The notes beneath the pieces are model-generated. The model worked only from the letters and a program-made list of their open reading frames with translations. It was not told the origin of the DNA and made no database searches. A DNA stretch of 64,000 nt. Origin: Patellaria atrata CBS 101060 (lineage: Eukaryota > Ascomycota > Dothideomycetes > Patellariales > Patellariaceae). Position numbers and translations under genes: made by a program. Location of the stretch: contig MU006093.1 of assembly GCA_010093705.1 (NCBI GenBank), positions 827,301-891,300 on the forward strand, written 5' to 3'. Positions within the stretch are counted from its first letter, which is position 1. The number at the start of each line of letters is the position of its first letter. Of the stretch, positions 18,113 through 57,329 are shown piece by piece.

Positions 18113-20085
18113 ATGCGAACTTTAGGATGCGCATATCTCTTTCGAAGCTCAATTACACCTGGTACTATTCGGCGAAGGGTTTTCTCCTCGCAGCTTAGGC
18201 CTTTGGTAGTGCTGAGATACCGCCCTTGCTATGGTAACCTTTCGCGATACGAACGATCCTTGAGGACTCTTCCTGCACAATCACCATCAGCCGCACATAA
18301 AACTTCAGCAGAGCTCCTCTCCGAAGACAACTCAACCATCTATGCGTTATCATCAGCCCCTGGTCAAGCTGCTATAGCAATTATTCGCCTTTCAGGGCCG
18401 GCATGCGTTGAGGTATCTCACGGGGTCTGTCTTAGTTAGAATCTCTAAACTTATTTTACTATTCTAGATATACCATGCCTTATGTCCTGACCGAGAACTT
18501 CCAAAGCCTCGTTTTGGTGCTCTGCGGACCCTTTACGAACCCTTGCAGCCACCGCATCGAGATAGTGTTCTAGATTCAGGTGCCCTGGTTCTATATTTTC
18601 CCTCACCCAATACAGTCACAGGTGAGGATGTACTTGAGTTACATGTTCATGGTGGCCCTGCAATTGTGAAGGCTGTGCTATCAGCTATTTCACGATGTTC
18701 GATCCCGTCTAAATTTGTACGCTACGCTGAACCAGGAGAATTCACTCGGCGTTCGTTCATGAATGATCGGCTTGATCTTACACAAGTAGAAGCGCTTGGC
18801 GAAGTGCTATCCGCAACGACTGAACAACAACGACGTCTTTCTGTCCGTGGAACGAGTAATAGTCTAGCCAAGCGATATGATGCTTGGAGACAGCAGCTAC
18901 TGAATGTTCGCGGAGAACTTGAGGCGTTGATCGACTTTTCAGAGGATCAGCATTTCGATGAGTCCCCTGAGATACTTGCTTCCTCTGTTGCTGCTCAAGT
19001 CAAAACTCTCAAAAAGTATATTGAAGCACATACCAGAAATGCTGTCAGAGGGGAGCTACTCCGAAATGGCATAAATCTCGCCCTTCTTGGCGCCCCGAAC
19101 GCAGGGAAAAGCTCCTTGCTCAATAAGATTGTTGGTAGAGATGCCGCAATCGTGAGCAAGGAAGCTGGTACCACTAGAGATGTCGTTGAAATTGGAATAG
19201 ACATCGGCGGTTGGCTATGTCGCTTAGGTGATACAGCTGGACTGAGACGCGCTGGGATACCTGAACCGTCAGCCTCCACATCCACAGATGCAAGCCCACG
19301 GCACGCACCGAGTGGCGGCACCGTTGGCGAGGTCGAAAAAGAGGGGATCAAGCGAGCTAAACAGCGCGCCATGGAGTCGGATGTTGTCATCGTAGTATTC
19401 TCCGTTGAGTATGCTGAAGATGGCCCTGAGTTTGAGATGGACCCTGAAGTCGTGGGTACTGCACGTAAATGTCTCGATAATAACGGTAATGTTGTATTTG
19501 TTGTGAATAAGTCTGATCGAATTCCTACCAAATTGCTATCTGCTGTAAAGGAAGAGATAACCCTTTCCATTCTGGACCGGCTTCCATCCGCTCAAGCAAA
19601 TTCTATCTACTTCACATCCTGCAAACAAATTTCCAGTCCTAGTTCCACAACGGATGATCCCGGAGACATCCAAAATTTCCTTCAAGGCCTGATTTCCACT
19701 TTCCAAAACATGACCAGCGCCATAATTCCAGACTCTGAAGAAGTAATTTCTGATCCTTCAATTTGGCAAGAATCCCTGGGTGCTTCCGAACGGCACCGAC
19801 TCCTTCTTGAACAATGTCTTGTCCACCTTGTTAATTTCCTTGCTGAAGTAGACATTGGAAACATTTCCACCGAGCTGGAAGGAAAGGTTGACATTGTCAT
19901 AGCAGCAGAACATTTGCGTTCTGCGGCAGATTGTTTGTCCCGAATTACGGGCAAAGGAGAAGCGGGAGATGTGGAGGAAGTACTTGGTGTGGTATTTGAA
20001 AAGTGCGTTGACCAGCAACGACTTCCCGTCTCATGATATTGCTAACAACAAACTCGCTTGAAACAGATTCTGCGTTGGAAAATAA
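18113..20085 (+). CDS. MSS1: MnmE/Mss1, mitochondrial tRNA modification GTPase
   Basis: With its partner Mto1/GidA this GTPase modifies the wobble uridine of mitochondrial tRNAs. Exons are 18113-18412, 18468-20002 and 20067-20085, giving 617 residues. The start at 18113 gives an Arg/Ser-rich mitochondrial presequence (MRTLGCAYLFRSSITPGTIR). The folate-binding N-domain begins near IYALSSAPGQAAIAIIRLSG. The GTPase motifs are GAPNAGKSS (G1), GTTRD (G2), DTAG (G3) and NKSD (G4). About 25 extra residues rich in S, T and P lie between DTAGLRR and VEKEGI, in the switch II region. The last exon is only 19 bases and supplies FCVGK, the conserved C-terminal Cys-x-Gly-Lys end. Without it the ORF would read on to a false C-terminus. 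Confidence 0.94.
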
Positions 20086-20405
20086 AGGGAGTGGAAAAGG
20101 AGATAATGATAAACGATTAAAATGTAAAAGACCAACATGCGATGCTAGACAGAAAACAAGAGACCAATAACGCCGGCGCATCGCTTCCCAGTCACAATCA
20201 TGTCGACCTCGACGCGCAACTCCTGAAAGAAAACCCCAAGTCTATAAAATCCTAGTCCGGTGGAACGCCCCCATGATCAACCCCAGAATCTCTTCCCCGG
20301 CCCCTGTTACCCCCTCGCCCAGCTCTCCGCCCCGGTTCCGTAACGCCATAAGAATGCCGAAATATCCTGCTCCCGCGAGCCATGTCTCACCCTAAAGTTT
20401 CCGAC

Positions 20406-20522
20406 TTAGTTGTAGCCGCCCCGTCCGTCGTCAACCATTGATGATGATTGAGCGAAGATTGCTGAGAAGAGTCTTCCAATGGTGCTGGTTAAAAGCTGGC
20501 TAGCAGTCAAGGCAGCAGACAT
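20406..20522 (-). CDS. 38-residue short protein ending GRGGYN
   Basis: I do not recognise a family. The ORF reads MSAALTASQLLTSTIGRLFS and ends SSSMVDDGRGGYN. An upstream seven-residue ORF (20656-20633) on the same strand reads MGRGGYN. The GRGGYN-stop segments of the two ORFs differ at four bases, and all four are third codon positions (GGC/GGA, CGA/CGG, GGA/GGC, TAT/TAC). That pattern indicates protein-level constraint on both. A TATATAAG box on this strand at 20880-20873 lies about 350 bases before the ATG, so one short transcript could carry both ORFs. The leader is rich in CAA/ACA without structure. No signal peptide or membrane helix is seen. Function is unknown; coding status rests on the synonymous pattern and the TATA box. 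Confidence 0.6.
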   Translation of the reverse strand: MSAALTASQLLTSTIGRLFSAIFAQSSSMVDDGRGGYN

Positions 20523-20632
20523 CGAGGTAGATATTGTGGTGGGTTGTTTTTGTGTGTGTTTGAAGTTGAAGTGTTGAGGATAAGATCGAATTGATATCGA
20601 TTGAGTGTTGTTTGGTTTGCAGTGGATTGAAT

Positions 20633-20656
20633 TTAGTTATATCCGCCTCGGCCCAT
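20633..20656 (-). CDS. Seven-residue upstream ORF MGRGGYN
   Basis: The ORF is ATG GGC CGA GGC GGA TAT AAC TAA on the minus strand. It lies 110 bases upstream of the 38-residue ORF and repeats that ORF's last six residues with only synonymous changes. It could be a regulatory uORF, a separately made peptide or a relic of a duplicated last exon. It is too short to call by coding statistics. Confidence 0.5.
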   Translation of the reverse strand: MGRGGYN

Positions 20657-20872
20657 GTAGAATATTGTAGTAATGTAGTTGAGGTTGTTTGGTAGTAAGT
20701 TGATTCTGATTGTTGTAGTTGTTGATAGCAAAGTGAATCTAATGCAACGCTTGAACGCTGGACCGAAAAATGCTAGCAGAAGTATGAAATAGAAAAGAGT
20801 CGAAGATGCTTTAGTAAGTTGTGATGTTGTTGTATGAGGAATGAATCCATCTAGGCCGCGAACCTGCGCCGT

Positions 20873-20880
20873 CTTATATA
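20873..20880 (-). promoter_or_regulatory. TATA box of the short-peptide transcript
   Basis: TATATAAG on the minus strand lies 217 bases before the seven-residue ORF. A CAA/ACA-rich leader follows it, as in highly expressed fungal genes. Confidence 0.5.
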
Positions 20881-23800
20881 TCAGAGAAAGGTGCGAACAG
20901 ATAGTACGTACTCGAGTGGAATAGGGTATCATCGTCTGCCTGAAAAATAGATACAGCCCATCCCCAATCCAGGCAGTCACCAAAACAGTCATAGCACACA
21001 CCACCACCACCATCCATCCATCCATCCATCCCATCGTACACAGACGCATAGAAGGGGTCCTGTTCGGTTTTCGTCCAATCCTCGTGCATCCTGACCTCGT
21101 TACCCAGTCCACTGACCGTTGGACCCAGCCCAGCAAGCCTCAATCTCCCCTACCCTTCCTAACGGTCCACAGGGCTGATGCACGGACCCTCCCCTTCACA
21201 CCCCCTTCCCAGCGCAACCGTTCCAACTACGACACGAGGTCCCCGGGGGGGGGTGCTTGTACATACATACTACACGTTACTACATAGCCACGAAGGGTCG
21301 CCGGGGTGTCCAGTACTGTTGCGGTGGGTAAAGGGTCTGTGGTTTGTGCCTTCGACGGGGTTGCGAGCAGCTGGGAAAGCCACAGCCGCTGCGGGACAAG
21401 GGGAGGAAAAAGAGAAAGTGATTAGAACAGATTAAGTGGGTTTGGGTTTGGCTCAGATTTGGGGAAGAGGGGGGGGGGAAGGGATGATGATGAGTGGGAT
21501 TACGTGGGTTGTAGTGTTGCTACTGTGGGATTAGACGTCGTAGTGTGGAATATCGTAAGGTATAATTGTAGAGTAGTTTTTTTTCTTCGATTATTTATTT
21601 TAGGCGACAGGGGATGGGAGGGCATGCGCTGCCGAGTTTTATTAGTCGGTGCGTGGACTTTCTAGCGTCCAAGGTTGCATGCATCACGAACATTTTGTCT
21701 GTTCCTGGACCCGGCGGTTTTCTTGTTAGTTGGAGACGGTGTGCGAGCCGGTCGGTGGTTATGGGCTTTCGGTGAACGGGTTGAGGTTTCGCTACACTAC
21801 ATACATTTTATTTTGCTTATTCCGCCTTTTCTGGAAGAAAACTATCTGACTATAGAAGAACTAAGGAACACGGGACGAGAGATGGAATAGAAACTTTTTT
21901 TTTGGAAACATTTTAGAGCCCGTGGAAGCTGTACGGCTAAAGTTGCCAGTTTATGACACTTTGATCATATTTTTGTACGAGAGAGCGTTTAATAAGATAA
22001 TAACTAGTTTTGTAATCAATATTACGAAGCACGTGTAGAAGAATTAGAATAGTTCTGCAATGCTCGTGCGCAATCTTTAGAATGCTCTGCCTCATGCCCG
22101 AATGACGCTTCAAGTTCTAATTTGCCCTCCAGATGACGCTCGAAACAGCGCGAAGAAAGCTAATATTGTAAAATTGACGGTTTCGTGTTGATTATTGATC
22201 TGCAGTTGATAGGTTACAACGGCTGGGAGGGGGGTAGGGTTAAGAACACACAGTCATACGGATTGCCCAACCGGTCGGGTAGGTTATAAAATATGCGCAG
22301 CAACGTGCAACATCTATACATTTCTAGATACTACTTGTCAACTGAATATTTGGGACCTGAAGATCTTCGATTGCATTGCCGTACCGACAGTTTCCATGGA
22401 TGGTGCCAGGACGTGGCTCGTGGGTCTGGTGGAATATCATCATATGTCACCTTTGGGTATTTATTTCTCCTATAGACCCATTTCTGTTTTTGGACACCTA
22501 TCGACTTGATGATTGTATACGCGGTGCTTCATGTGATGCCTAAGGTACAGTACCTAAGATGAAAGAGTCATTGATGCCTTGAAGACTCATACTCTCCAGC
22601 GGCGCAGTCGAACTGGAAGTGATGTTGCCCTCTCCAAAATATCGCTGCCTGCCCGTGCCTACTGTCAAAAGCGTCATCTGCCCCCATCAAAAGTCGCAAT
22701 CCCGCATTCAGGACGCGCAACCTACCACAACATATTCTCCCAGGTCCCGAAATACCCCGTCGACCCCAGTGGTTGTGTCTCCCCGTATCCTCTCACAATA
22801 TCCGTGTTAGATAGGGTACACGATCCCGACCCAAGGCATCCATCACTCGTCGATCGTTCGTTCTGCAGCCAACCGCGATTTTGGGAACCGTTATAACGAC
22901 CTCATTCCGATACCACAGTGTCCCATAGATTTGTATAACCACCCTCCGTTTTCTGCAAAAAGCCTCGTGGTGTACCAGGTCTTCGCCTGAGACAATCCAC
23001 CCCATCGCAAGGTCTGCCCATCTCGTTGGGTCAGGAACAGCACACCACTCCACGCCGCATCCCTTGTACCTACCCGAAAGAGGACATCCCAAAATGTTTC
23101 CAATACATGCAACTAAGAATCCACTTGGGGGGTTTTCATGAGTGGTTCGCGAGATGCCGTAAGCCAGCGAAAAAAAGGTCGCTGCACGGGCCGCGAGCCG
23201 GGTGAGCTTGACCGAGACAAAAATAAACCGCCCCCCCTAGTCCCCCGTCTCCCCGAAAACCCCCTAACCCTTTCAGCCCTACAGCATAACCGGCTACCTA
23301 ACCTTAGTGAGTAGTGGACCCCCCTAGGGACCGGATGGCGTCTCAGCGACCAATCGTCACCGCTTCTACGCTTGTTCCGTGGAGTCACTCTCACATGGAT
23401 GTCACGCACCGTCTTTTCCTCAAGGAGTCTAAACGGGAATCCGCTCTGTAAATTCGACCCTCATTCGGACACCAGAGGCTGTGCGTCACGAAAGGGTCTG
23501 TGCGGATTTAGTAACTGGGTGATTATGGCGACCTGTAACTTTCATGACCGACTTGTGACGAAAGAGACCTGGGGAGAGCTGGTGAAGCTTTAGGTTCCCG
23601 CAAGTCAATTCGTTGAAACCTGCGGTACATGGCGGAGGGGCTCTGTTCGATGATGAGTGGCGAGTGGGGTTAGCTGTTTGATACTTTTGTATCAATTGAC
23701 GGCCCCTCAAAGCTGGTTGGTCGAATATTTTGATTAATTTCTGTTTTTGCGTGGATACTTTTATTCGAAAATCTCTCGATCCTGTGACTGTTTCTTGGGG

Positions 23801-25102
23801 TCAGGATAATAGACTATTGGAGTAGTATTAGGAACGTTTATGGCGTTACTAATGACGCACACAACAACACCAAGGGCAGATGCTTGAGGCTGAGTGCAGG
23901 TAACTAGTCCGATTGGCAATATTTTAGCAGCAAATTATTTCTTTCTACTGTATTCGATGACTTTGAGAGAAAAGACTGCTAAAAGACTACTAAATCTACG
24001 CTTACCTATCACATCCACGCCTTTTCGTCAAAACGCTCTACACACCGCACTTGGCAGGAATCTTTGCCGGAGTCCCCGACCATACACCGTCTATCATTAA
24101 TTAACGGCTTAGTACACATTCACGACATTCTGAAGACTTTCAAGGGACAGTACGAGCTTCTGATCTTCGGTTTTCGCTAATCGCGCATTAATCGCATCTC
24201 TGACTCGTAGTAGGATTATTGGTATCACCCACAATTCACAAAGAAAGATATGTTTTCCGGCAAGGATCGAAAAACCACACCACCGTCGTGACATTCACTC
24301 TCAGCGCACAAGTACAGGCTTAGGCGATGTGACTGATCACATTCGGAGAATTTCCGAGCACATGCTACGCCATGTTATACCACGTTGCACCAAAGGAATG
24401 ATTCATCTGGAGTGTAATATTCTGGAAAGGGGTCCCCACGAGCCTCATCAGCGACCCTGCATCGCCCGTACAAAAGACAATGCGCTGCAATTGTGCTGCA
24501 GCACATCCATGGAGAGACTAAATTGCCGATGCATGACTTTGTCATACTCGCTGAGAGAGTTCAATAGCACCCTTCGTACCTGCATTTGAGCGCCCTTTCA
24601 CAACGTCCTACCGGTTCGTCCCGCATCCGACGGATCATAGTGCAACCAAAGTAGGCACCGAGCATCCTTACCGATGACACATAGTCGGAAATTTTTGCTG
24701 CGCAGCGAAGCGTAATACTACTTTGAGATGTGAGCCGGAATTATGATTCACGAGTCGAAAGGAGCTTGACCGGAACATGCGAAATCATACGATTACAAGC
24801 TGCTTCATTCTATCAGGGCTGTTCAGCAAGAGGAGTGAACTGGCATTGAAGAGGTCTGTTCAGTAGTTGAAAACCCCACGGTCGATTCTCTGCTCATCAG
24901 CCTGCTGTGTGAGCGATGTAGTACTGTGAATTGTCAATTTGATGTCGAAAATGCCTAACGAACACAAGAAAGAATACCGTAAGCACAGAAGAATCTTCTT
25001 CCTCTTCTTCGCTTTGCAAATAGACATACAACACGATAGCATGCTTGTCACATACGCCTATCCATCGTCAGTCATTTTGATCGGAAAACATTTCGTTTGT
25101 CT
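20881..25102. other. 4.2-kb gene-free stretch
   Basis: The first part (to about 21450) is the upstream region of the short-peptide gene and holds C- and G-runs and a CATC microsatellite. The remainder has only short ORFs with no recognised motif. A short C-rich patch with CCCCCTAACCC lies near 23260. No tRNA or transposon ends are seen. Confidence 0.45.
21011..21032. repeat. (CATC)n microsatellite
   Basis: Five tandem CATC units, upstream of the short-peptide gene. Confidence 0.85.
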
Positions 25103-26125
25103 TTATTCACAAGCAATCACACGCCCACTAAGCTTCCCTATGGACAAAACCTTTGACAGGTCTTTCCCATCTATTCTCACGGAAGCCCACCCCTCGAGAC
25201 TCTTACCGTCGGCAGACCCCTTTTGCTTCATGATGGTGCTTGGATGGTTAGCGATGCCTTCTTCTCCCCCTTCTACCTGAGTAGGATCTAGTTCAGGATT
25301 AGAAAGTTCGGTCCAAAGGCAAGAAATATTCTGAGGATCCGTAACAACACTTAGTCGAAGACATCCATGCATGTTAGCCTCGAAATTGATGATCGGCCTG
25401 TTCTGACGACCACTACGAGAAACAGTATCCCGTATGGCTATCTGAGTGAATTGGTCTGAAATGCTCTTCAGGGCCTTCAAGTTGGGTAGTTGGATGTGTA
25501 CATCAGGATCTGGACATCGAGGCTCATGGATATTTGCTACTGTCTCCGGGCTTAATACTCGGATTGGGATCTGCTGGTTGATCTCATGAGTTCGATCTGT
25601 ATTGCCGGTGGTTTGAAGGTCAACGGTTTGACCATCGCCATCGAACTGGTCATTGAATGAGCTGCCAAATGTACCGGAAGAACCGCTGAGCGATGTTATC
25701 TTCAAACATAAAATCGGCTGGTTGCCAACTTTGGTAAGACGAAGTTCAGCAGCTACGGCATTCAGGGCGGATTTGAGCGCAGCTGTAAGTTGTCCAATTG
25801 GGATTTCAAGATTGATAACGTTGTCAGCTTGTGATACGATGGTGTACTGGTCAAACACGGTGTTCTAGCACCTCTTTAGTTTTATTTCCTGATAACAGTC
25901 ACTCTAGACGTACGATGCTAAGCACACTGAATACTTATCAGTTGATAGAACTATAACCAAGAGAGAAGTCACTCACGCCCAAACCTGCGAGCCTTGCTCG
26001 GGTATGATGGTGAATCTGATATCATCTAAGCTCAATCTGACCCAACATATGCTCCCTATGGAAGTAAGTGCAGACACCAGCTTGTAGAAAGTATTGATAT
26101 TCTGGACATCTGCCTTAAAGCGCAT
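25103..26125 (-). CDS. HUS1: Hus1, subunit of the 9-1-1 DNA-damage checkpoint clamp
   Basis: Hus1 forms a PCNA-like ring with Rad9 and Rad1 that is loaded at damaged DNA and activates the ATR checkpoint. Exons are 26125-25977, 25926-25914 and 25864-25103, giving 307 residues. The middle exon is only 13 bases (TGTGCTTAGCATC). It is needed to keep frame between VWA and NTVFDQYTI, and both its introns (50 and 49 bases) have standard ends. The N-terminus MRFKADVQNINTFYKLVSAL and the SICWVRLSLDDIRFTIIPEQ block are typical Hus1. Later marks include INLEIPIGQLTAALKSALNA and, at the end, KLSGRVIACE. The length is normal for fungal Hus1. The gene is divergent to the P450 gene. Confidence 0.93.
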
Positions 26126-54005: not shown

Positions 54006-57000
54006 ATGAACTTCTTTACGAAGACCTCTTCAGGTGCCCATAGATCTCCTAGTTATGGACAGTGGATCACTAGATTTCCGCAATACAAGGAGTGGCTCTC
54101 AGACCCGAGCCGGGTCGGATTATTTTTCATCGATGAGGGAACAGACCACATCGATATGGCTCATGAAATGGTTGCTCATGCCCTACATCCTATATCTACA
54201 GTTCAGGGCACGGTTTTCATAGATCTATCATCCCTGGGCAGTATGAACCAAGAGTCATGCTTGACGGAAGTGCTGCAAAGAATACTATATCAACTTCTTC
54301 ACTTGAACCCCGAAGGCTTGTGGACTCTTTATGGAACTCTTTTCAGGAGTGGAACCATCCCAGCGAAAGCTTTAGAGCGTTTTTTTAACCCTAACGATAA
54401 CAATCCAAAGGACCAGGATTTCCGCATGGACGCGTTATTATGGGCACTACCGGATTCAACAGATAATCTATACATCACATTCACTGGACTAGAGGTTATC
54501 GACCCCGATACACAGATCGCATTGCTCGATTTATTTCTCCATCAAGTCGCCGCATTCCGGGTTCGCCCGGTCAAGCTCCTGTTTTGCAGCAAATCGCCGC
54601 AGCCTCAGTCCAAATTGCCAATATGGGCTGCGATTATTGATCAGGAAGCGCAAAGAAAGCGTGAGTCATCAAAACTTCGCGACGACTGTCTCTAACTTTA
54701 AGTTTTAGACTGTATAGACTCCTTGTACTTCAATGAATGGCAGGCTCGGAGATCTCTTATAGATCCACCGTTAGAGGATACTGATGAGTGGGTTTGGCAC
54801 CATAAGTCTTTCCAGTCGTGGTTGGAAAAGCCATCCGGAGTTCTTTGGATTAAAGGAAAACCTGGAAGTGGAAAGTCTACGATTGCACGGGTTATTAACG
54901 ATGGGCTACAGATTGAGGACGAGACACTCAATGCGATGCTGCCGCGTTCGAATACTAAGCGAGTCATCGCCTTCAGTTTCTTTTACAGTTATAAATTACC
55001 AGAACTAGCGACTCAGCATCAGTTTATGTTACGGTCAATCCTTTATCAGATATTGAAGGAAGAATCCTCCTACTTCAATCACATTCAAGACATTTATCAC
55101 CGCATTTATGCACGGAATGACCCTCCTCACTGGACACTTCTGGATCTGAAAGAAGCTTTAGAGAAAATTTGTACGGCAAGATCAAAAAATCAGGAATCTC
55201 AAAAGCTTTGCTTGATCCTCGATGGCATTGATGAAGCCGAAGATCAGGATAACGAGTGGCATAGCTCCCTTACAAGCGAACAAGGCGTACTTCGATGGCT
55301 TACTAAACTGTCTTGTGCTGATGAGAATACACGCTTGAAGCTCATCATTTCATGCAGGCCTACGACATCGATAACCCAATCTCTAGGAAGCTTCCCCAAA
55401 ATCGTTGTTGAGGAGCACAACAAAATGGCGATCGAGAAGATTATTGAACATGGACTCAAGCACATTAGGACCTCGATGATTCAATGGATAAAAAGTGACT
55501 CTGGAAGCCCAGTTGTAGAGACCTATGATGCATCAGATGACATGTTAAAAGACGTGGATGTTATGATCAATACACTACGGAGGCTTCTACTTCCACGCGC
55601 GTCAGACACTGTACAATGGGTCGTTGTGGTTTTGAAAGAACTACATTCTTACATTGGTGAAAAAGGTTTGTATAGACCCGGGATTATCGAGGAAATGATA
55701 GAGAGTCTTCCACAAGGTTTGGAAGAGCTCTACAAAGAACTTATCTCTAGGTTGCAGCGTCGTCTAAATGAATCGGACATTCAACGAGCTCGTTCCATGC
55801 TAGAATGGGCATGTTTCACCCAGCGTCCACTACGCTTAGATGAGTTTCAAGATGCCCTTGCACTAGCGCATGTTGAGGAACAGAATGCAAGGTCGCTTCA
55901 AAATTGCCTTGACTCGCATCGCATGTCTTTCTTCCAGGCCGGAAACTGGGCCCCTTTGGAACGCGACATTTCCGACACTTGCGGTTGTCTACTTGAAGTC
56001 GTTCTACCAAAGTCATCCCAGCCAAGAGAGGCGAAAGCTATGTCCAAGAAACGCGTTTCTCCGGACTATGTCGTCCAGGTGATCCATCATACAGCTAAAG
56101 AATACCTCGTCCGTCGGTTAGATAGCAGTCATGGTTTGCTTTTAGATCCCAAACATGCACGCGCATCATTCTCCCGCTCGCTATTTTCTTATATATCTTT
56201 AAGTCTCCCACTATCATCGATAGATGATGATACCGAAGCAACAAAAACACCGATACTAGATTGGAAGCCGACAGAATACAAACGATTAGCACATATGTTG
56301 GACGATAGACCTCTACTCTTATATATTATTCAGCACTTTCGACAGAATCATGTAGACTCAAGTATGCTTGGTGCTATCCAGACGTATTTTCAGAACTTGC
56401 GACTCTCCCCATCCGAGCACGGCTGGGGCTTACTCCGTTACTGGGTTGAGCCTGAAAATCTAGTACCTACGAACTATGACACCTCTCGTTCAGGAGATTA
56501 TCAGCTACGTAGAACGCTTTTTACCGACCTTCGCACAAGACACAATATTAGACTAGGTTGCTGCCGAGATAAACCAGTGGAAGAACGATTCTCTCACGAT
56601 TTGTTTCTCACGGCGTGCCGATTTGGCTATGCTACGGCAGCTCGATTACTATTAGAGTCACCTTTCCAAGTTTATGATCAAGTTAAAAGTGATGCTTGTA
56701 TACAGTGCGTCCGGGAAAACATTATTCCTATCGTTAAAGTTCTTCTACCCGAAATAGACCATATCACCAAACAGAAAGTATTGACCAGCGGATTTTTGAC
56801 CGCTATTGAACAGGGAAAACCTTTGACTGTGCAGCTTCTATTAGACTACGGGGCAGATCCGAACTATTTAACTGGGGACGGCTATACCTCACTACACAGA
56901 GCGGTTTATTTTAATTGCATCCCCGTTGCAGAGGTCTTGTTAAAGGCTGGGGCTAACATAGACTATAACGGTCGCCTTGGAACACCGCTTATGTTCGCCG

Positions 57001-57329
57001 TAGAACAGGGAAATAAAGAATTTGTTCAATTTCTTATTGACCAGAAAGCAAACATTCACCTGAAGAACGATGACGGCTTTGGAGCGTTGTATCTCGCCTT
57101 GATCTCAGACAGCAAGGAAGACACAAACATGATCTCGATGCTACTCCATGCCGGTTCTCATCCCCTTGAGCGGGAGGAACATGATCGTGTACTACTAGAT
57201 ATCCTGAGGAATCGGGTAAGGGCCCATCGCGCGATATTGTCTCCGCTTGGGGAGATTCTAGAATCTCTAGGTGCGATGACTTTACGCTCTGATACATTGA
57301 CAGGAGTTGAGGCGGAACAACAGGAATGA
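54006..57329 (+). CDS. NACHT-ankyrin STAND protein (fungal NLR type) with a second, degenerate NACHT-like region
   Basis: The product is a predicted nucleotide-switch receptor of the fungal NLR class, tied in other fungi to non-self recognition and regulated cell death. Exons are 54006-54660 and 54709-57329, giving 1,091 residues from the first ATG; coding may extend upstream. Residues ~10-215 look like a NACHT with no P-loop: SPSYGQWITRFPQYKEWL leads into GLFFIDEGTDH where GKPGSGKST would be, and LYITFTGLEV stands for Walker B. A full NACHT follows, with Walker A GKPGSGKST at ~268-276 and Walker B KLCLILDGIDEAED at ~382-395, then LKLIISCRPT. A helical region follows, including HHTAKEYLV, typical of this family. 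About four to five ankyrin repeats fill ~850-1040 (YTSLHRAVYFNCIPVAEVLL). The repeats are not near-identical, so recent expansion is not seen. Confidence 0.88.

Follow-up and report, generated by a model that had tools for sequence, protein, structure and literature searches.

Layout and neighbourhood of the locus

Two short open reading frames lie on the minus strand of the window analysed here (the whole stretch of DNA, 64,000 nucleotides), between an MnmE/MSS1-like frame on the plus strand that ends at 20036 and a Hus1-like frame on the minus strand at 25106-25864. Other frames of the window match Mid1, NPHP3_N/NACHT with ankyrin repeats, a P450, an AMP-binding enzyme, a PLP enzyme and a calcineurin-like phosphoesterase, and two of the ten frames scanned are without a family match; such a set of neighbours would suit a filamentous fungus. 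The frame with NPHP3_N/NACHT and ankyrin repeats comprises 875 codons (54702-57326, plus strand), and its make-up is presumably that of fungal NLR-like genes. Read directly from the minus strand, the first short frame (ORF1, 20656-20633) is MGRGGYN-stop; the second (ORF2, 20522-20406) is MSAALTASQLLTSTIGRLFSAIFAQSSSMVDDGRGGYN-stop, 38 residues that end in DDGRGGYN-stop. A spacing of 110 nt separates them. The sequence-only reading that drew attention to the pair had given both ORFs, their coordinates, this spacing and four third-position differences between their tails, all of which prove exact on re-reading, and the pair is unusual. The features of the locus are as follows.

20873-20880, minus strand: TATA box (TATATAAG), putative core promoter, a perfect match that starts at 20880.
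20657-20840, minus strand: putative 5' leader of 184 nt with no ATG and 8% G, from composition and the list of ATGs, its start being placed at about 20840.
20633-20656, minus strand: ORF1, MGRGGYN-stop, read directly, with T at -3.
20523-20632, minus strand: spacer between ORF1 and ORF2, 110 nt with no ATG, no GT and 4% G, from composition.
20406-20522, minus strand: ORF2, 38 residues ending DDGRGGYN-stop, a predicted helix, read directly, with T at -3.
20406-20438, minus strand: possible internal start of ORF2 at the in-frame ATG at 20438 (a putative start), giving MVDDGRGGYN.

An open frame of 138 codons, without a Pfam match, runs on the minus strand from 21049 and has ORF1 as its last part. 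For MGRGGYN to be a separate ORF of 7 residues, the transcript would have to begin after the TATA box. The first minus-strand ATG after the TATA box, at 20850, opens a frame of 25 codons and lies 23 nt beyond the end of the box, perhaps at or before the transcription start site; the next two ATGs are those of ORF1 and then ORF2. If the transcript starts upstream of 20850, ORF1 is therefore its second ORF and not its first. The T at -3 of both start codons is what we take to be a weak start context. Further upstream, the putative promoter is separated from the Hus1-like frame by roughly 4.2 kb (20881-25105), a long interval for a compact fungal genome; its sole frame of at least 150 codons is the open stretch 20636-21139, and it carries no Rfam or tRNA match.

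The upstream TATA box that had been claimed is indeed there, as a perfect TATATAAG beginning at 20880 on the minus strand. As the window holds 11 TATAWAWR sites on the minus strand and 7 on the plus strand, a TATA box alone is weak evidence. The leader had been described as unstructured, and 20840-20700 in fact folds no better than its shuffles (z 0.09). Folding of the spacer gives one small hairpin of -3.7 kcal/mol (z -5.72; shuffle mean -0.27; one of 200 shuffles folds as well); it is small in absolute terms and its shuffles hardly fold, and we build nothing on it. Stretches of 110 nt with at most five G occur at four places on the minus strand of the window, the spacer lying within one of them, and at two on the plus strand. 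Scored against the splice consensus, every GT before 20520 agrees with fewer than two of the four variable donor positions; that part has no usable donor, and one unspliced leader is therefore plausible. Leader and spacer together resemble a 5' leader of the kind expected in translated fungal genes, and the setting of the tail pair looks like a promoter with its leader. For a single transcript over both ORFs, the TATA box and the absence of donors are consistent with such a reading. Rfam gave no match in 19000-22500 at E up to 1 and none at the gathering score in the whole window, and no tRNA was found; on these negative results we set a structured RNA aside.

The MSS1-like frame lies only 369 nt from ORF2, in the opposite orientation, so there is no room for a long main ORF after ORF2. 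Among ATG-ORFs, the class covered by this search (spliced frames were covered in part), the longest on the minus strand that starts in 20405-20037 has 78 codons and runs antisense into the MSS1-like frame. This bears on a reading in which the two peptides act as cis sensors rather than free products, with the nascent GRGGYN stalling the ribosome at the stop codon of ORF1 and again at that of ORF2. Both matches end exactly at the stop codon, and fungi are known to have conserved uORFs of very small size, such as that of the amd motif (PMC5640933). Against it, no long main ORF follows, and stalling could therefore regulate only ORF2 itself; we regard translation control of this kind as unlikely.

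Just after ORF2 the minus strand turns G-rich (43% G over 20405-20256). Two overlapping minus-strand frames in 20255-20391 carry the GRGG-like words RAGRGGNRGRGR and LRNRGGELGEG, probably an effect of composition. A good donor-like site, G|GTGAGA, occurs at 20390 on the minus strand, 15 nt after the ORF2 stop; if used, it would place an intron in the 3' untranslated region, and such introns can trigger mRNA decay.

It could also be that ORF2 is one exon piece of a larger spliced protein: an intron would cut out or skip the tail, and translation would continue from ORF2 into the open frame GETWLAGAGYFGILMALRNRGG at 20391-20245. Immediately behind an AG, that frame has 49 codons without a stop, and by direct reading a join at the GT at 20435 would be in frame. 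The donor there (GTTGAC), however, fits none of the four variable positions of the consensus, and the intron would be only 44 nt long, which makes its use unlikely; the 49-codon frame has no match in Pfam or NCBIfam (the 43-codon frame beside it has none in Pfam), and its codon score is modest at 3.6 bits. We consider a spliced protein of this form highly improbable.

The shared GRGGYN tail

The two GRGGYN-stop tails lie 227 nt apart and agree at 17 of 21 bases. Their four differences fall at positions 3, 6, 12 and 15 of the 21, each a third codon position and each silent. The sequence-only reading had argued from this silent-only pattern to selection, and here we cannot follow it. Because the peptides are identical, every difference in their coding is silent by definition, and the pattern is not independent evidence. 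Pairs of GRGGYN codings drawn independently from the codon usage of the window (eight Pfam-supported frames, 3,309 codons) show a mean of 4.4 differing bases, and 53% of draws show four or fewer, against the four seen. The third positions look as if the tails were unrelated, or as if their common origin were so old that the silent sites are saturated. A neutral-substitution figure of 0.0020-0.0035, for four random tail changes all being silent, presupposes common descent and is left unused as support. With the silent-change argument invalid, what supports the finding is the hexapeptide match together with its setting.

The same differences speak to the idea that what is repeated is a motif in DNA or RNA, such as a protein binding site, and that the shared peptide is incidental. 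Agreement at 17 of 21 bases between two copies within one leader is what such a motif could produce. Yet the differences are confined to third positions, which has a probability of 0.005 for random sites and is what a peptide match would give, and there is no Rfam match; a nucleic-acid motif seems to us scarcely probable at all.

That a recent duplication is unlikely, as had been proposed, is supported by the leaders themselves, whose best alignment to each other is equalled by 20% of 1,000 first-order shuffles. Each leader does contain one copy of a 22-nt direct repeat with 77% identity (20684-20705 and 20607-20628), although two-copy repeats of about 22 nt in A/C-rich DNA often arise by chance, a caution attached to the repeat finder. 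Its copies are 77 nt apart, as against 227 nt for the tails, and being out of register it does not carry the tails along. Leader similarity at the level of shuffles and a repeat out of register together make a recent tandem duplication unlikely.

The tail match is rare, and striking for one window, yet not overwhelming. Of the 53,960 stop-anchored six-residue tail pairs no more than 400 nt apart in the window (25,463 on the plus strand and 28,497 on the minus strand), only that of ORF1 and ORF2 matches at all six residues, and one pair elsewhere, on the plus strand, matches at five. Residue frequencies give a chance expectation of 5.6e-8 per pair for a six-residue match, or about 0.003 per window; 40 first-order Markov shuffles yielded no six-residue matches and 0.375 five-residue matches per window. 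ORF1 and ORF2 are likewise the only pair with more than four matches among 10,057 pairs of ATG-ORFs at most 1 kb apart (ORFs of at least six residues), a count that took the first ATG of each frame and into which ORF1 entered as the 138-codon frame.

These figures leave room for chance, that is, for two unrelated short frames that share a glycine-rich hexapeptide end in an ordinary leader or in non-coding DNA. The expectation of 0.003 per window translates into one or two pairs of this kind over an assumed 40-Mb genome, the silent sites differ as they would between unrelated codings, and the codon statistics of the locus are weak. Moreover, many features were read at the first stage, so the oddest of them was probably the one selected. 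Chance accounts less readily for the arrangement of ORF1 and ORF2: a single TATA box precedes both, they are near neighbours in one leader poor in ATG and in G, and such a region offers far fewer pairs for comparison than the window as a whole. We therefore weigh it as a serious, if on the whole rather unlikely, explanation.

Coding signal and relatives

By codon usage, ORF2 hardly stands out from random ORFs. Its codon log-likelihood of 6.2 bits is the highest among 48 ORFs (at least 20 residues, starts at 20037-25000), and the runner-up, at 5.7 bits, is an opposite-strand ORF of 37 codons at 20142 on the plus strand, just past the MSS1-like stop. In codon adaptation ORF2 ranks tenth of 44 ORFs of at least 25 residues. 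Codon bias in the window is weak, and both tests consequently have little power.

Searches with ORF2 returned sub-threshold matches only in Pfam (best PsbT at E 0.062 and DUF5969 at 0.11) and in NCBIfam (best E 0.15), and no significant match among PDB sequences, where the six that were returned, at E 0.58-1.3, are all photosystem II protein T. We read these as probable helix look-alikes. A single-sequence AlphaFold model predicts one helix over residues 3-37, with a mean pLDDT of 88.9 and 74 in the last block; because the model was made without an alignment, we place little weight on it, and least of all on the tail.

A pattern for ORF1, which also permits serine, matches one stretch in IMG/VR and three in GTDB prokaryote genomes. 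Three of the four read MGSGGYN and one (L002) reads MGRGGYN, and none of the four stretches fetched has a second RGGYN-stop on the matching strand; we take these viral and prokaryotic matches as background, apparently single and unrelated. A pattern for the ORF2 tail has no match in IMG/VR. In the full-text literature, GRGGYN occurs in what excerpts describe as the Hrp1 nuclear localisation signal. No match listed for GRGGYN or RGGYN, in a search to which most subscription papers lie outside the scope, names this peptide or locus.

A candidate short-peptide gene and known systems

The sequence-only reading had proposed a real two-ORF short-peptide gene. Its argument from silent changes falls away, but the proposal itself is reasonable and remains our leading reading, given the rare tail match and a setting that resembles a promoter and leader. 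The reading that we tentatively favour is of an unannotated, unspliced short-ORF gene, laid out like pri/tal of insects, in which the free C-terminal GRGGYN is functional. In its favour we count the rare tail match, the TATA box, the ATG-less and G-poor leader and spacer, the lead of ORF2 in codon score, and the layout of pri/tal and Sloth1/2; we count against it the small size of that lead, the synonymous pattern of unrelated codings, the lack of a significant family or PDB match, the lack of a relative in the non-fungal collections searched, the one or two chance pairs expected over an assumed 40-Mb genome, and the ATG at 20850 that possibly precedes ORF1. As biology, a two-ORF gene of this kind is plausible.

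Such a gene would produce an unannotated, unspliced mRNA with only short ORFs, transcription probably starting some 30-45 nt past the TATA box. Ribosomes would scan the G-poor leader and translate ORF1, and would get to ORF2 either by leaky scanning, the start context of ORF1 being weak, or by crossing the 110-nt spacer and reinitiating. The two products would have a free C-terminal GRGGYN in common, displayed by ORF2 where a partly hydrophobic helix ends and by ORF1 as a bare heptapeptide. The likeliest function would be that of a short C-terminal ligand for one partner that recognises both products. ORF1 and ORF2 may then be redundant, like the peptides of pri/tal, or ORF1 may act as a soluble competitor of ORF2. 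It is tempting to go further and speculate, doubtful as this stronger version is, that the locus is a fungal counterpart of pri/tal encoding only tiny peptides (MGRGGYN, the 38-residue helical peptide and perhaps MVDDGRGGYN), all of which offer a free GRGGYN to a single receptor, where anchored forms cooperate or compete with soluble ones.

Several known systems invite comparison. In the long leader of cpc-1/GCN4, two short ORFs control a long downstream ORF, and N. crassa cpc-1 reinitiates after its first uORF; the available text of PMC5487733 reports no shared peptide ending for these uORFs. The fungal amd-motif uORF has 6 or 8 residues and a conserved C-terminus; a long protein gene lies downstream of it, and it coincides in part with a conserved RNA structure (PMC5640933). 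Unlike that case, neither a long downstream gene nor an RNA structure was found here by ORF scan and Rfam. With no long main ORF downstream of ORF2, assignment to a cpc-1/GCN4-like or amd-type conserved-peptide uORF fails.

Closer in kind are Sloth1 and Sloth2 of Drosophila, two similar short ORFs on one transcript, for which there is evidence that translation of the first reduces that of the second, and a proposal that ribosomes get to the second by leaky scanning, the start of the first being weak (PMC9681215, in excerpt). According to the same excerpt, the two proteins are 79 and 61 residues long and show 27% similarity when compared in full, their ORFs are 5 nt apart, and they are conserved in other eukaryotes, whereas at our locus the match is confined to six residues and 110 nt lie between the ORFs.

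The insect gene pri/tal/mlpt (polished rice / tarsal-less / mille-pattes) has a single-exon mRNA with three 11-residue ORFs and one 32-residue ORF that share a core motif, LDPTGQ(T)Y, present twice in the longest peptide, and its function has been shown genetically (PMC3136413, in the part available). The likeness lies in several short ORFs on one strand with a common short motif (here 7 and 38 residues, with GRGGYN) and in the lack of a long ORF downstream, the longest ATG-ORF having 78 codons. The differences are that the motif here is another one, set at the very C-terminus, that the organism presumably belongs to another kingdom, and that the locus is known from sequence alone. Direct reading of the ORF1 and ORF2 peptides finds the LDPTGXY motif absent from both, so the locus is not a member of the pri/tal family and is similar in layout only. 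If our favoured reading is true, a heptapeptide ORF can be a product although it is much smaller than anything gene finders call, and a fungus has a polycistronic gene for short peptides with a common motif; the cases compared, as excerpted in PMC3136413 and PMC9681215, are animal. Among the systems considered, pri/tal has the closest layout.
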